Source: Bradyrhizobium diazoefficiens
GTDB lineage: Bacteria > Pseudomonadota > Alphaproteobacteria > Rhizobiales > Xanthobacteraceae
DNA: 64,000 nucleotides
Reading direction: 5' to 3'
Assembly: GCF_018131185.1 (NCBI RefSeq)
Contig: NZ_JAFCJE010000003.1
Location: 434,001-498,000 of the forward strand
Both the position numbers and the translations under genes were made by a program. Positions 40,539 to 47,829 of the stretch are shown here, piece after piece (the stretch's first letter is position 1; every line of letters begins with the position of its first letter). Below the pieces are notes generated by a model that was given only the letters and a program-made list of their open reading frames with translations, was not told the DNA's origin and did not search any database.

Positions 40539-42704
40539 TCAATACATCTGCAGCGGCAGCACGTCTCCGTTCGGGCCCACCAGAAGACCCCAGGCCTCGC
40601 CGGCCGCAACGGTCAAGGTCTCGGTGCGGGCGGGCTGCCCGGGCAGGCGCACCGCGTACGGATACTTGCCTGGCGGCAGATCGAGCATGGGGCCTTTCGG
40701 TGATCGCGGGCCACCGGCACCGGCCGCGATCTTCACCGTCTGCTTGTTGATCGTCAGCGAGGCCTCGGCTGCTCCCATGTTGCCAAGCATGAGCCTCGCT
40801 TGTCCCGCCTTCGGCATGATGTCGGCCTTAGCAGCGACATCCGCATTCTTCTGCGCCAGGCTGACGGTGGTCTCGCCCTTGGTGCGCCCGAGCATGAGAA
40901 GAGCCGGGCCTTGCGGCGAGGTGAAGTGGAGCTGCGCGCGTTCTGCCGACACGGTCGCGCCGTCGGCCTTCTCCTGCCAGCCGAGCTTGGACAATTCGGC
41001 ACGGTAGAAGGCGAGGACGTCCTGGAGCGGCGCGGGGATGCTGGCTGTCAGCTCCTGGCGGAGCGGCCCCTCGCCGCCGGGTACCTTTGTGGTGGCAAAC
41101 GATTTCGACGAACGCTGCGTCGGCACGGGCAGTTGGGATTCAGGATCGGGCCTGAGCGGCTCGGAGGATTTGGCCTGCACCTCCATCTCCGTGCTGGCCG
41201 CAGGCTTGGCCGCTCCCGTCACCAGGCCCGAACCGTCGGCGCGGACACTCACCTTCGAGCCCATCTGCATCACGGTCATCGAGATCGACTTGCCGCCCTT
41301 GGAGAACGCCATCACCGCCATGTTGGGCTGGTTGATGACGGAGGGCTGCTCCTTCCAGCCCGAGCCCTTCAGCGCCGTGCGATAGAAGCTGCTGAGCGCC
41401 TTCACGCTCGACGCCGAGGAGAATTCCAGCCGGCCGTCGCCGCCTTCGAACTTCACGCCTTCCGCATTCTCGGGTAGCGGCACCGGCGTCTTGCTGTCGG
41501 CGAGCGGAGTGAGCGGGGCGTCCGACAGCGAGGCCGCCTGCGACTTGCGCCGGGCCTCATCCGTCGCGATGAGCTGCTGAGCCGCACCCAAGGCATCGCC
41601 CAAGAACCTCGCGTCGGCCTCCTTCTTCGCCTTGGCGCGGGCCGCGAGCGCCGATTCCTTCACCTGCGCAGTCAGGCTGATCATGGTGAAATCATATCTG
41701 CGGCCGAGCCGCAGCACGCCGGTTTCCTCCGCCGACGAGATTCTGATCGCGACCTCGTCGCCGGGCGCGAGCGGTGCGTTACCGTCCTCCTGCCAGCCGC
41801 GCGCGGCGAGCTCGCGACGATAGAAGGCGAGCACGGCGGGCATCTCGGCCATCGCGGCGGCCGACATCTCGCGTTTGTTGGAGCTCGCACTACCAAGGCC
41901 TCGCGCCGACTTGGTCGGCTTGGGGCGCGGCAGGCCGGCCATATCGTCGTCGGCCTCGAGCTCCTGGGGCAGTGCGAACGGCGCCACCCTGATCTCGACA
42001 TTGGTGCGGCCGTCGTCGCGGCGCGTCAGGGTCAGCATCACCGGTTTCTGCTTGTAGAACTGCGTCGTGTCACCGCCGGGATGATCGTAGAAGGCGCGCA
42101 CGCCGTTCGGGACGGCCTCGCCGAGATCCGCATTCGGCCAGCGCGAAGCGGTCTCTGGCGTGAGCTTGCGCCATCCCATCGCTTCCATGTCCTTCGCAAA
42201 GAACTCCGAGGTGGCGTCGAGCGCGCCGGGCGCGATGCAGCCGAGATAGGGCCGGGTCTCGTCGAACACGAGGTCGGTCGCGCCGTCCGGGAAGGGCACG
42301 TTGGAATAGATCCGGTTCGGCGTGTAGGATACGGCGGACTGGTCGGGCCGCCCGCGCGCCTGCGTGAAGGAGACACGCAGCCCCTGCCGTCCCTTCTTGA
42401 AGCTCAGCGTGCTGCTCTTCTCGTCCAGCGGATACACATAGGGCACCCAGCCCTCGGCGCTCAGCAGCTTCCTGGTGGCGTCCGATGTGGCGGCCGGTGC
42501 GGTGGGCACGGTGTAGATCACGCGATGGTTGTCGGGGCGCGAGGTGTCCTCGACCGCGCCCTCGAGCCGCGGCAGGGTGTGGACCTCCACGATGCCTTCG
42601 TCTGCGGCGCCCGCCGGACGCGAGGTGCTCGCCATGACGAGAATGCCGCAGGCAAGCAGCAGCCATTTTGCCGGGACTTGCGCCCCGCGCCGGATCATCG
42701 GCAT
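40539..42704 (-). CDS. Large secreted protein with repeated FYR-GW modules
   Basis: 721 residues from the ATG at 42704 (AGGAG 8 bases upstream; a TTG two codons earlier is weaker). Signal peptide at about 1-33 (KWLLLACGILVMASTSRPAGA). The rest repeats a module in which a short proline-led strand is followed by a helix ending in Gly-Trp: SDATRKLLSAEGW, TSEFFAKDMEAMGW, VLAFYRRELAARGWQED, ALSSFYRTALKGSGWKEQ and VLAFYRAELSKLGWQEK. The C-terminal 150 residues match the neighbour gene. No known function; FY-x5-L-x3-GW modules occur in other uncharacterised lipoproteins. Confidence 0.75.
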   Translation of the reverse strand: MPMIRRGAQVPAKWLLLACGILVMASTSRPAGAADEGIVEVHTLPRLEGAVEDTSRPDNHRVIYTVPTAPAATSDATRKLLSAEGWVPYVYPLDEKSSTLSFKKGRQGLRVSFTQARGRPDQSAVSYTPNRIYSNVPFPDGATDLVFDETRPYLGCIAPGALDATSEFFAKDMEAMGWRKLTPETASRWPNADLGEAVPNGVRAFYDHPGGDTTQFYKQKPVMLTLTRRDDGRTNVEIRVAPFALPQELEADDDMAGLPRPKPTKSARGLGSASSNKREMSAAAMAEMPAVLAFYRRELAARGWQEDGNAPLAPGDEVAIRISSAEETGVLRLGRRYDFTMISLTAQVKESALAARAKAKKEADARFLGDALGAAQQLIATDEARRKSQAASLSDAPLTPLADSKTPVPLPENAEGVKFEGGDGRLEFSSASSVKALSSFYRTALKGSGWKEQPSVINQPNMAVMAFSKGGKSISMTVMQMGSKVSVRADGSGLVTGAAKPAASTEMEVQAKSSEPLRPDPESQLPVPTQRSSKSFATTKVPGGEGPLRQELTASIPAPLQDVLAFYRAELSKLGWQEKADGATVSAERAQLHFTSPQGPALLMLGRTKGETTVSLAQKNADVAAKADIMPKAGQARLMLGNMGAAEASLTINKQTVKIAAGAGGPRSPKGPMLDLPPGKYPYAVRLPGQPARTETLTVAAGEAWGLLVGPNGDVLPLQMY

Positions 42705-42862
42705 CGTCAAAACTCCTGGATGTCGCGCGGGTCGTCCTGCCCTCGCGCGTTGGCAGGCCGCGTCGCCGTCGGCGCGCGGCCTTAGACAAGAAGTCGCGGT
42801 GGGAACCGGAGAGGTTCAACGAGCGCGCCCGGCCGGCGCCATGGCTGCGACGGGCGCAGTGC

Positions 42863-43597
42863 TCAGTACAGCTGCAGCGGCGGCCACGCGTCACCATCGC
42901 GCCCGACCGTGAGCTCCCAGGTATCGCCGGCCGCGACCGTGAGGATGTTCGTGGTGGCCGGATAGCCCGGCACGCCCAGCCTGTAGGGATATTTGCCGGG
43001 CACGAGGTCAAGCGCGACCGCGTTCGCCCCGGCCCGGCGCGGGATGGTTTGGTCGTTGATCTCGAGCACGGCTTCCTTGTCGCCGATGTTGCTGAACACC
43101 AGCTTCGCCTGACCGGGCTCCGGCAGGACGTTCGCTTTGGCCGCCGTCGCCGCATTCTTCTGCACGAGATGGACCGAGGTGCCGGAATCCTTGCGGGCAA
43201 GCTTCAATGCTGCCGGCCCGAGCGGCGAGACGAAGGCGAGCTGCACGTGGTCGGCGCCGATCACCGCGTCATCACGCTGTTCCTGCCAGCCGAGCCTTTC
43301 AAGCTCGGTGCGATAGAAGGCGAGGACGTCGCCGAGCCCTGCGGGCACGGCGGCGTCCAGCCTGACGCGGAGCGGCGCTTCGGCGCCCCGCATCAGCGTG
43401 GTGTGGATTCCTCTATAAGTGTAGCGCGTCGGTGCGGGCAGCTTGGCATCCGAATCCAGCGTGAGCGTCGTCGGAAACAGATGCGGCAGCGAGGCGCCGG
43501 CGCTGGCCGCGAGCAGGCACATCGCAAGCAGGACGAGGCCGTATGCAAACACCCGCCATCGTGCCGGGGCTCGCACCCCATGCCTCACCGTCGTCAT
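42863..43597 (-). CDS. Secreted single-module paralogue of the FYR-GW repeat protein
   Basis: 244 residues from the ATG at 43597, with GGAG 7 bases upstream. Signal peptide about 1-38 (WRVFAYGLVLLAMCLLAASA). One module, VLAFYRTELERLGWQEQ, followed by a tail that parallels the larger protein residue by residue: AQLAFVSPLGPAAL against the neighbour's AQLHFTSPQGPALL, VHLVQKNAATAAKANVLPE against SLAQKNADVAAKADIMPK, and a final PPLQLY against LPLQMY. Tandem duplication is evident. Function unknown. Confidence 0.75.
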   Translation of the reverse strand: MTTVRHGVRAPARWRVFAYGLVLLAMCLLAASAGASLPHLFPTTLTLDSDAKLPAPTRYTYRGIHTTLMRGAEAPLRVRLDAAVPAGLGDVLAFYRTELERLGWQEQRDDAVIGADHVQLAFVSPLGPAALKLARKDSGTSVHLVQKNAATAAKANVLPEPGQAKLVFSNIGDKEAVLEINDQTIPRRAGANAVALDLVPGKYPYRLGVPGYPATTNILTVAAGDTWELTVGRDGDAWPPLQLY

Positions 43598-43705: not shown

Positions 43706-44842
43706 CTACCTTCGGGCCGAGACCTGTCCGCTCTCGACGTCGAAGACTTCGCCTCCGGCGCCGATCTCGGCAAACGCCGCCGGGTCCGCGCCCGTCAGCC
43801 AGACCTGCGCACCGAGCCTCTTCAGCTCGTCGAACAGCGCGGCGCGGCGGTTCGGATCGAGATGGGCGACGACCTCGTCGAGCAGCAGCAGCGGGACGAT
43901 GCCGGTCATTTCCGCCACCAGCGTCGCATGCGCCAGCACGAGGCCGATCAGCAGCGCTTTCTGCTCGCCGGTGGAGGCGTCGCGCGCCGGCATGCTCTTG
44001 GGCGCATAGATCACCTGAAGGTCGGTGAGATGCGGACCGTCGGTGGTGCGGCCGGCGATGGCGTCGCGCGGACGGTTGTCGCGCAGGATCTGACGGTAGC
44101 GGTCCTCGACCGACGTCGCGGTCTCCTGGAGCAGCGCATTCTCCATCCAGCCGTCGAGCGCGATTTGCGCCGAGGGAAAGGCGGAGGCCTGCGCGCGCGC
44201 ATTCAGCATCCCGGTCAGCTTTGCTGCTGTCTGGCCGCGCGTTGCGGCGACCGCGACCGCGAGCTCCGCGGTCTCGCGTTCGATCGCATCACACCAATGG
44301 TCGTCGTAATTGCGGGTTTCGAGCAGGCGGTTGCGTGAGCGCAGCGAACGTTCCAGCGCGGAGATGCGGCTGGAATGATCGCTGTCGATGGCGAGCACCA
44401 GGCGGTCGAAGAAGCGCCGCCGCTCGGATGCCGCGCCCATGAACAGCCCGTCCATCGCCGGCGTCAGCCAGACCATGCGGATGTGGTCGCCGAAAGCTGT
44501 CGCCGAATTGACCGGCTCCCGGTCGATGCGGCAGCGCCGGCTCACCGCGTTGTCGAGCTTGGGCGCATCGACGCCGGTGCCGAGCGTCGCCAGTCCCAGC
44601 GCGCCCTCGACTTGCGCCGACACCGCCCAGGAGCCGTCGCCCTGGTTATCGGCGACGTCTTCCAGCGTCGCGCGCCGCAGGCCGCGTCCCGGCGACAGAA
44701 ACGAGATCGCCTCGATGCAATTGGTCTTGCCCGCCCCGTTCGGCCCGACCAGCGCCACCATGTCAGCCGCCGTCTCGAGCCCCGCCGCCCGATAATTGCG
44801 AAAATGCGTCAGCGTCAGGCGATGAATGCGGGAGGGAATCAT
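43706..44842 (-). CDS. recF: DNA replication and repair protein RecF
   Basis: 378 residues. SMC-like ABC ATPase that loads RecA at gaps with RecO and RecR. N-terminal IHRLTLTHFRNYRAA, Walker A GPNGAGKTN at 33-41, the SFLSPGRGLR segment, and the C-terminal signature/Walker B region (STGEQKALLIGLVLAHA, then PLLLLDEVVAHLD). Length normal. Follows dnaN, separated by repeat E. Confidence 0.95.
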   Translation of the reverse strand: MIPSRIHRLTLTHFRNYRAAGLETAADMVALVGPNGAGKTNCIEAISFLSPGRGLRRATLEDVADNQGDGSWAVSAQVEGALGLATLGTGVDAPKLDNAVSRRCRIDREPVNSATAFGDHIRMVWLTPAMDGLFMGAASERRRFFDRLVLAIDSDHSSRISALERSLRSRNRLLETRNYDDHWCDAIERETAELAVAVAATRGQTAAKLTGMLNARAQASAFPSAQIALDGWMENALLQETATSVEDRYRQILRDNRPRDAIAGRTTDGPHLTDLQVIYAPKSMPARDASTGEQKALLIGLVLAHATLVAEMTGIVPLLLLDEVVAHLDPNRRAALFDELKRLGAQVWLTGADPAAFAEIGAGGEVFDVESGQVSARR

Positions 44843-46419: not shown

Positions 46420-47829
46420 TTATTCCTGAAGCTGGCGCTTCAGCGACTCCACTTCCTCCGACAGCGCGGTGTCCTTGGAGACCAGGGCCTCGATCTTGCG
46501 CACGGCGTGCAGCACCGTGGTGTGGTCGCGCCCGCCGAAGCGGCGGCCGATCTCCGGCAGCGAGCGCAGGGTCAGCGTCTTGGCGAGATACATCGCCACC
46601 TGGCGCGGGCGGACCACGTTGGCGGTGCGCCGCGAGGACAGGAGGTCGGAGCGGCTGACATTATACTGCCGCGCCACCACGCGCTGGATGTCCTCGATCT
46701 TGATCCGCTTCGGCTCCTGCGGCCGGACCAGGTCGCGCACCTCGTGCTCGGCCATTTCCAGCGTCACGGGCCGGTTGTTGAGTTTCGAGTGCGCGAGCAG
46801 ACGGTTGATCGCGCCTTCGAGGTCGCGGCCGTTGTGGGTGATGGTGCGCGCCAGATAGAGCAGCACCTCCTCGGGCACCTCGAACGTCGCATGATGGGCA
46901 CGGGCTGCCGCGACGCGCGACTTGAGAATGCCGTGGCGCAGCTCCTCGCCGAGCGAGCCCATCTCGACCACGAGGCCGCCGGCGAGCCGCGAGCGCACGC
47001 GGTCGTCCAGGCTTTCCAGATCGGAGGGCGGCCGGTCGGCCGCGACCACGACCTGCCGGCCGGCATCGATCAGCGCGTTCAGCGTGTGACAAAACTCGGC
47101 CTGGGTGGACTTGCCCTGCAGGAACTGGAGATCGTCGATGACCAGCACGTCGATGCCGCGCAGCGCTTCCTTGAAGGCCAGCGCCGTCTGCGTCTTCAGC
47201 GCGGCGACGAAGCCGTACATGAATTTTTCCGCCGTGAGATAGAGCACCTTGCGCTCGTTGCCGGAATTGCCGGCCCAGGTCACCGCCTGGAGCAGGTGCG
47301 TCTTGCCGAGCCCGACACCGGCATGGATGTAGAGCGGGTTGAACATCACGGGGTCGCCGCGACGCCCCTCGGCAACTTGGCGAGCGGCGGCGAGTGCCAG
47401 CGTGTTGGAGCGGCCGACGACGAAGCTCGCGAAGGTCAGGCGCGGATCGAGCGGCGAGCCGCCGAGCGCGTCGTGATTGGCCGAGACCGGCGCAGTCGCG
47501 GTGGAGCGCAGCTCCGGCGTGGGCGCACGGCGCGTCTCGGCCGGCAGCGGGGCTTCCTTCGGCTGCGCCAGCGGGCGCACGGCCGAACGCACCGTGAGGT
47601 CGATACGATGCACTTCCGGCATCTCGGCCTGCCAGCACGACAGCACGCGCTCGGCATAATGGGCCTGGATCCAGCTCTTCAGGAAGCGGGTCGGCACCGA
47701 GAGCCGCACGCTCTCGTCCTGCACGCCTTCCAGATCCATGCGCGCAAACCAGCTCGTGTAAACGTCCTCGCCAACGCTCGAGCGCAGCCGACCCTTCACG
47801 CGTGACCAGCGATCCTGTTCCATTGTCAT
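46420..47829 (-). CDS. dnaA: Chromosomal replication initiator protein DnaA
   Basis: 469 residues; the ATG at 47829 and another at 47823 are both possible. Domain I is at about 1-85, a Pro-rich linker at 85-125, the AAA+ domain at about 130-345 (Walker A GVGLGKTH 171-178, Walker B VIDDLQF), and the DNA-binding domain IV ends with [16 protein letters not shown], the DnaA-box-reading signature. It initiates chromosome replication. The upstream 1.2 kb leader carries DnaA-box-like sites. Confidence 0.97.

Follow-up and report, generated by a model that had tools for sequence, protein, structure and literature searches.

Known envelope folds and the two proteins of the recF-gyrB gap

Mog1p/PsbP-type units occur in envelope proteins such as DcrB, PA1624, Flpp3 and BamC, and the DcrB/Eag chaperones carry one such unit per protein. 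Eag chaperones, which fall within the DcrB Pfam family (PF08786), are described as binding the transmembrane regions of effectors (PMC7773334), and PA1624 (DUF4892) of Pseudomonas aeruginosa as a periplasmic protein of unknown function with a Mog1p/PsbP-like N-domain (PMC7716261). AlgF is presented as a proposed non-catalytic periplasmic adaptor that mediates protein-protein contacts, with PepT1/2 among its nearest folds (PMC10641220). Here we describe two adjacent genes that lie between recF and gyrB in a stretch of 64,000 nucleotides from Bradyrhizobium diazoefficiens (positions 434,001 to 498,000 of contig NZ_JAFCJE010000003.1, the whole of which we call the window). Their products appear to combine a module of the first kind, once in the small protein and five times (M1-M5) in the large one, with an AlgF-like beta-sandwich, called here the C-terminal domain (CTD). 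While both folds are already known, the sequence family and the multi-module architecture are undescribed.

The two genes and the parts of their products are as follows (aa, amino acids; residues of the small protein are numbered in its 246-aa form).

42863..43597, minus strand: small protein gene, 244 aa from ATG 43597; signal peptide, one module (residues ~52-159) and C-terminal beta-sandwich domain (residues ~160-246)
40539..42704, minus strand: large protein gene, 721 aa; signal peptide, M1-M5, Ala-rich helical linker between M3 and M4, CTD
42300..42587, minus strand: M1, residues ~40-135; weakest member, assigned by predicted fold, no FYR; RKLLSAEGW
41961..42317, minus strand: M2, residues ~130-248; FFAKDMEAMGW; holds the sole cysteine after residue 35 (C156, in RPYLGC)
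41649..41951, minus strand: M3, residues ~252-352; FYRRELAARGW
41499..41651, minus strand: Ala/Arg/Lys-rich helical linker, residues ~352-402; helix 350-391 in the model
41220..41504, minus strand: M4, residues ~401-495; FYRTALKGSGW
40839..41147, minus strand: M5, residues ~520-622; FYRAELSKLGW; the module in common with the small protein
40542..40841, minus strand: CTD of the large protein, residues ~622-721; predicted AlgF/PepT-like beta-sandwich ending in a nearly invariant Tyr

The small gene ends with a stop at 42863, and we prefer ATG 43597 to the alternative ATG 43603 (246 aa) because GGAG lies 7 bases upstream of the former, as against 1 base for the latter. For the large gene, ATG 42704 is preferred over TTG 42710 because AGGAG stands 8 bases upstream. 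Signal peptides, already noticed in a reading of these genes made from the sequence alone (below, the sequence-only reading), were recognized by inspection on both proteins; the N-terminal helix is of low confidence in the models.

Structures were predicted by AlphaFold2 with family alignments, and folds were compared with VIA-align. The model of the small protein had a mean predicted local distance difference test score (pLDDT) of 88.1 and a predicted template modelling score (pTM) of 0.74, and that of the large protein 82.2 and 0.47; because of the low pTM, the domain folds of the large model are usable but their mutual placement is not. The predicted module topology is beta-beta-alpha-beta-beta-beta-beta in the small protein, M3 and M5, and M1, M2 and M4 share this predicted core, although some of their strands are assigned short or not at all. 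The modelled small-protein module matched the N-domain of PA1624 (Z 9.0, root-mean-square deviation (rmsd) 2.8, 96 residues aligned), DcrB 6e8a (Z 8.9, rmsd 2.4, 87 aligned), SciW (Z 8.7, rmsd 3.0, 83 aligned) and BamC (Z 7.8, rmsd 3.1, 87 aligned), while the modelled M3 matched DcrB (Z 8.9, rmsd 3.0, 89 aligned), M4 matched Flpp3 (Z 8.1, rmsd 2.6, 80 aligned) and M5 matched PA94 (Z 7.8, rmsd 3.7, 87 aligned). For the modelled CTD, the matches were to the extracellular domain of PepT1 (Z 11.1, rmsd 2.3, 84 aligned), the C-domain (6d10; Z 10.1, rmsd 2.4, 80 aligned) and N-domain (6czt; Z 9.6, rmsd 2.4, 79 aligned) of AlgF and the lumenal domain of HGSNAT (Z 10.0, rmsd 2.8, 86 aligned). Matches to cholesterol-dependent cytolysin domain 4, IglE and carboxypeptidase domains were put down to a generic resemblance among beta-sandwiches. 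The models thus suggest that the module is a Mog1p/PsbP-type unit as in the envelope proteins named above, and that the CTD is an AlgF-like beta-sandwich.

Each of the described systems resembles the two proteins in part. The DcrB/Eag chaperones have the fold that is predicted also for M3, M5 and the small-protein module (Z 7.7-8.9) and likewise belong to an envelope or chaperone context, but here five units stand in a row and are followed by a beta-sandwich, and there is no sequence match at E 0.01. PA1624 has an N-domain with the fold of the module and a second domain behind it, as here, but that second domain is OmpA-like instead of AlgF/PepT-like, there is one module only, and sequence match is again lacking. 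AlgF shares the beta-sandwich, a common fold; it has two of these in tandem and the partners AlgI/J/X, whereas each protein here has a single sandwich without sequence match to AlgF, and in the window the pair is flanked directly by recF and gyrB rather than by AlgI/J/X-type genes. BamC, finally, has alpha/beta units in tandem, as here, and its fold match is modest, but the large protein has five units, the proteins are mostly without a lipobox-like motif, and the sequences do not match.

Signal peptides, together with module and CTD folds that are common to periplasmic proteins, make the envelope location proposed by the sequence-only reading likely. Neither protein has recognizable catalytic features. 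We infer periplasmic residence and a binding function for both proteins, and would put about even chances on their being exported, non-catalytic periplasmic proteins that work as binding scaffolds. They would be exported by Sec and be soluble or loosely attached in the periplasm, where each module would hold a partner protein or segment and the AlgF-like CTD would attach the chain to a further component of the envelope. In the long form five such units would be strung together, possibly with a covalent link to a partner through C156; the small form could serve it as a cap or adaptor, or compete with it. By inspection the two window proteins have no standard lipobox and neither is a clear lipoprotein, but a lipobox-like motif occurs in part of the orthologues, so part of the family may be lipid-anchored, and some members would then be held at a membrane. 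Several points weigh against a scaffold role. Fold likeness shows no function, as both folds do different jobs and the modelled Z values of 8-11 are moderate; the placement of the domains in the large model is unsure (pTM 0.47); and in the stretches that were read no gene turns up repeatedly as a partner next to family members, so that the 'system' of the sequence-only reading is not supported. Moreover, the gap lacks a family gene in 16 of 36 Bradyrhizobium genomes (the window's own and 35 relatives, surveyed for the recF-gyrB gap) and holds a mere remnant in one more, and the gene is therefore dispensable.

Module repeats and sequence-family searches

The sequence-only reading had counted about five copies of a module with an FYR-GW ending. 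The three FYR-GW sites that it named are all present in the large protein (residues 294-304, 440-450 and 566-576, ATG numbering), and the helix motif FYRxxLxxxGW is found in M3, M4, M5 and the small protein, with M1 and M2 lacking FYR and keeping the helix-GW part. The proline-rich strand said to lead each module is there as well: the opening strands have P-x-P in M2-M5 (NVPFP, GLPRP, PVPLP and QLPVP, respectively) and in the small protein (KLPAP), and M1 has the P-x-P-like TLPRL.

In profile-profile comparisons with blocks of 50 sequences, the probabilities among M2-M5 were 99.6% (M3-M5), 95.4% (M2-M4), 94.2% (M4-M5), 93.8% (M2-M5), 89.6% (M2-M3) and 81.7% (M3-M4). Thirty column shuffles were made for each of seven pairs (M2-M4 and M1-M4 not among them), and the shuffled profiles gave at most 14.7% (M2-M3) and at most 3.2% in the other six pairs (1.5% for M1-M2), so that homology among M2-M5 goes beyond chance. 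Only the M3-M5 alignment spans a full module (93 columns); for each other pair among M2-M5 it covers 24-67 columns, mainly in the helix-GW part. The M1 profile reached 27.5% to M4, 14.7% to M2, 2.5% to M3 and 0.8% to M5, and its membership, for which the main ground is the predicted fold, is suggestive only. The count of five modules thus stands, with M2-M5 carried by profiles and M1 weak, while the FYR ending holds for neither M1 nor M2. Sequence and models together show the traits of the FYR-GW module family that we propose: an LPxP strand, an FYRxxLxxxGW helix and four strands behind it. Once the module is described, many hypothetical envelope proteins could be annotated together, and studies of the envelope in root-nodule symbionts would gain a testable candidate.

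No Pfam, NCBIfam or PHROGs model scored above its curated cut-off for either window protein, in agreement with their having been called uncharacterized. Comparison of the family profiles with Protein Data Bank sequences gave nothing credible, and we found no open-access paper dealing with these proteins by its title or the start of its abstract. Among 52 rows of small or C-terminal sequences and 50 rows of large ones, no Pfam match at E 0.01 was to DcrB/DUF1795 (PF08786), AlgF, BamC, BamF (DUF3035) or PA1624 (DUF4892). At this threshold the only matches were to fvmX5 (PF20003, FtsH ternary system domain X5; 2 small or C-terminal and 14 large rows), DUF2059 (2 and 4) and RecJ_C (0 and 2).

The only recurring Pfam lead is therefore fvmX5, and a remote kinship with it is possible on these profile matches, which are weaker than a family assignment. 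The large protein of the window scored 20.9 bits against a cut-off of 24.2, over 29 residues at M5, and the small protein gave no match. When 20 large orthologues were scanned singly, eight matched fvmX5 at E 0.01, with DUF2059 and RecJ_C staying under their cut-offs; the orthologue of locus L166 passed the fvmX5 cut-off by 0.1 bit (24.3 versus 24.2), the sole one of 21 proteins with scores to do so. Its alignment joins residues 263-386 (M3 and the Ala-rich helix) to profile positions 13-138 of 187, and that helix may account for some of the match. A paper that does not use the name fvmX5 describes FtsH ternary systems as AAA+ conflict systems (PMC7159879), and no parts of such systems were seen here. 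The sequence-only reading had staked its claim on the modules standing outside known, functionally described families; none was found to take in all of them, with one orthologue barely over the fvmX5 cut-off.

Conservation and gene content of the recF-gyrB gap

The gene order in the window is dnaA-dnaN-recF-small-large-gyrB, all on the minus strand, and the broken dnaA-dnaN-recF-gyrB block seen from the sequence is indeed interrupted by two co-oriented genes. The neighbours are:

46420-47829, minus strand: dnaA
45041-46159, minus strand: dnaN
43706-44842, minus strand: recF
start about 40220, minus strand: gyrB

The large protein is up to 89% identical in the closest named Bradyrhizobium contigs. 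We compared the best 80 of 97 confirmed named loci with a large protein, and in all 77 that hold both recF and gyrB the large gene lies between them; L127, L151 and L169 are at contig ends. The commonest layouts were small-large (26 loci), small-large-small (22), large alone (12) and large with an acyltransferase gene (6), followed by large-small (2), large-large (2) and ten layouts seen once. A mobile insertion between recF and gyrB is ruled out by the absence of any PHROGs match and by a position kept in 77 of 77 loci with both genes and in six genomes of two other genera.

Selection was estimated by the NG86 method against 12 chosen named loci, in nine of which the small gene was comparable. 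The ratio of nonsynonymous to synonymous substitution rates (dN/dS) was 0.168-0.404 for the large gene (12/12 loci) and 0.286-0.483 for the small gene (9/12), compared with 0.066-0.222 for recF and 0.048-0.230 for gyrB. Both genes are under purifying selection and are constrained less than recF and gyrB; dN/dS and conservation also rule out chance open reading frames (ORFs). Among the conserved residues, exactly one cysteine after residue 35 occurs in 79 of 80 large proteins, as does RPYLxC; 79 of 80 large and 72 of 73 small proteins end in Tyr. Beyond residue 40, most small proteins (61/73) are free of cysteine. Only some of the long forms from other genera carry the cysteine motif (4/14 among those listed).

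The recF-gyrB gap of Bradyrhizobium is a place of gene gain and loss. Between one and three family genes occupy it in 19 of the 36 genomes (two of these, G007 and G016, on broken contigs). The remnant, in G026 (L064, 3609-3833), comprises 23 C-terminal residues, 74% identical, in a 399-base-pair gap. An AT3-type acyltransferase gene lies in the gap, on the opposite strand, in nine of the 36 genomes (L060, L061, L062 and L073-L078), accompanied by the large gene in G001, G023 and G032 and without it in G020, G024, G025, G028, G031 and G033; in G024 its AT3 and SGNH domains were confirmed by Pfam. Such an acyltransferase gene is also present in seven of the 80 named loci. These occurrences would suit an AlgF-like adaptor of surface-polysaccharide O-acetylation that works with AT3 (OafA-type) acyltransferases, as would the resemblance of the modelled CTD to the two domains of AlgF (Z about 10) and to the acetyltransferase HGSNAT in its lumenal domain. 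We consider such a role very unlikely: beta-sandwiches are common, and this one resembles unrelated binding domains too; in 73 of the 80 named loci no such acyltransferase was found in the stretch; and the gene is on the opposite strand and occurs in six genomes without the large gene.

The variability of the gap could also reflect a fast-evolving envelope protein of lineage-specific ecological use, at a host plant, phage or stress interface, that has no fixed molecular partner, and to this we give a modest minority weight. It is consistent with the zero to three copies per gap, the many absences, the small-protein dN/dS of up to 0.48 versus 0.07-0.22 for recF, and the other contents of the gap, which include the acyltransferase, a sulfatase-like gene (by eye) and a membrane protein with a methyltransferase. 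Against it, the near-invariance of the helix motif, the cysteine and the C-terminal Tyr points to a fixed interaction.

Some individual gaps are unusual in content or assembly. About 2.6 kb of overlapping frames, sulfatase-like by eye, separate the large gene from a second small gene in L129 (7751-10356), and L139 has a similar long gap. In G035 (L079, 1351-3743) the gap contains a methyltransferase-domain gene (Pfam) and a gene for a 545-aa protein that looks like a membrane protein by eye and has no Pfam match. The recF-gyrB region of G011 (L051, L066) appears twice on one contig with the same matches, possibly an assembly artefact, and gyrB is read as two open frames in G031 (L077, 167-2606), from a frameshift, a sequencing error or a break.

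In the wider bacterial family, a match was found in 49 of 295 genomes and in 13 of 47 genera, and outside Bradyrhizobium there are long forms whose open frame reaches 1020 aa. Among 20 stretches from other genera, the gene sits between recF and gyrB in six (two genera); neither recF nor gyrB was found in the other 14, of which some are short or at contig ends and two have no family ORF by BLAST. The sequence-only reading took the place next to replication genes as a hint of function, but this is not supported, given these 14 stretches and the Bradyrhizobium gaps that are empty or hold an acyltransferase, and beyond position we found no evidence of a replication role.

Origin of the small gene and its distant relatives

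The small protein corresponds to the last module and CTD of the large one, as had been proposed with an estimated 30-50% identity; over residues 3-246 the identity to the C-terminal part of the large protein is 48%. In six relatives the N-termini of small and large proteins are also alike, with 37-49% identity (query residues 2-40 at the shortest, 2-68 at the longest). A tree of 200 distinct module-plus-CTD units (quick method, midpoint root) places 83 small proteins of the gap in one group (Shimodaira-Hasegawa-like approximate likelihood ratio test 99), which is nested among the large proteins of Bradyrhizobium and splits into subgroups of 58 and 25 members, made up mostly of upstream and of downstream copies, respectively. 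Given this nesting and the matching N-termini, we regard the small gene as a shortened duplicate of the large one that lacks the inner modules; to judge from the sequences, it arose within Bradyrhizobium and was then itself duplicated, and the tandem duplication proposed earlier is supported. In part of the genus the duplicate may be anchored in a membrane, since 10 of 22 downstream small copies have a lipobox-like LAGC or LASC (e.g. L115:8294-8986 and L128:8391-9083). On another contig the same genome encodes a third, distant paralogue, which has one module and a CTD (L034:8977-9960).

More distant relatives are single-module proteins. Lipoproteins of other Alphaproteobacteria match the module-plus-CTD profile at 97.9% (hhalign), and a mutM-linked single-module group matches it at 96.7%; a cysteine after the signal sequence is common to all 11 single-module relatives aligned. 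Such lipoproteins are common in the class: their profile found 87 of 289 sampled alphaproteobacterial genomes at E 0.001 (weak rows and the window's own genome included), 67 of them at E <1e-12, and 24 of 249 genomes in a sample of the phylum, 16 of these outside the class. Ten relatives that were scanned, including a 585-aa form and the distant paralogue, gave no Pfam or NCBIfam match over cut-off. The gene neighbourhood of the lipoproteins was ruled out as a functional clue, there being no consistent neighbour in 28 loci: bamB adjoins in four (BamB confirmed by Pfam in two), a MipZ-like gene in two and a hisI/pyrG-like gene in two, all by eye except BamB.

The bamB neighbours in four of the 28 lipoprotein loci, and BamC among the fold matches of the module, raise the question of an outer-membrane biogenesis factor, whose tandem modules would be BamC-like helix-grip domains that aid the beta-barrel assembly machine (BAM) or chaperone outer-membrane proteins. 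No alphaproteobacterium is reported to have BamC (PMC3359395), and 11 of 80 large and 33 of 73 small proteins were picked out by a pattern scan for lipobox-like motifs. Nonetheless we think such a factor unlikely. The remaining 69 of 80 long forms are without the motif; none of the 102 family rows matched BamC or BamF at E 0.01; no bamB was found in 24 of the 28 lipoprotein loci; a Z of 7.8 is inside the range that the fold-comparison tool rates as common; and, in contrast to core BAM parts, the gene is missing from many Bradyrhizobium. A broader proposal would unite the single-module lipoproteins and the multi-module exported scaffolds in an undescribed alphaproteobacterial superfamily of periplasmic modules, a lineage-specific envelope platform for client binding or assembly, with a BamC-like or AlgF-like adaptor role in Bradyrhizobium and the nearly invariant lone cysteine of the long form linking covalently to a partner; in this full form it is unlikely.

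The flanks of three loci of the mutM-linked group were read (L192, L193 and L198), and in these the single-module exported relative stands, by eye, between mutM-like and enoyl-CoA-hydratase-like genes, with dnaA and rpsT close by in L193 and L198.

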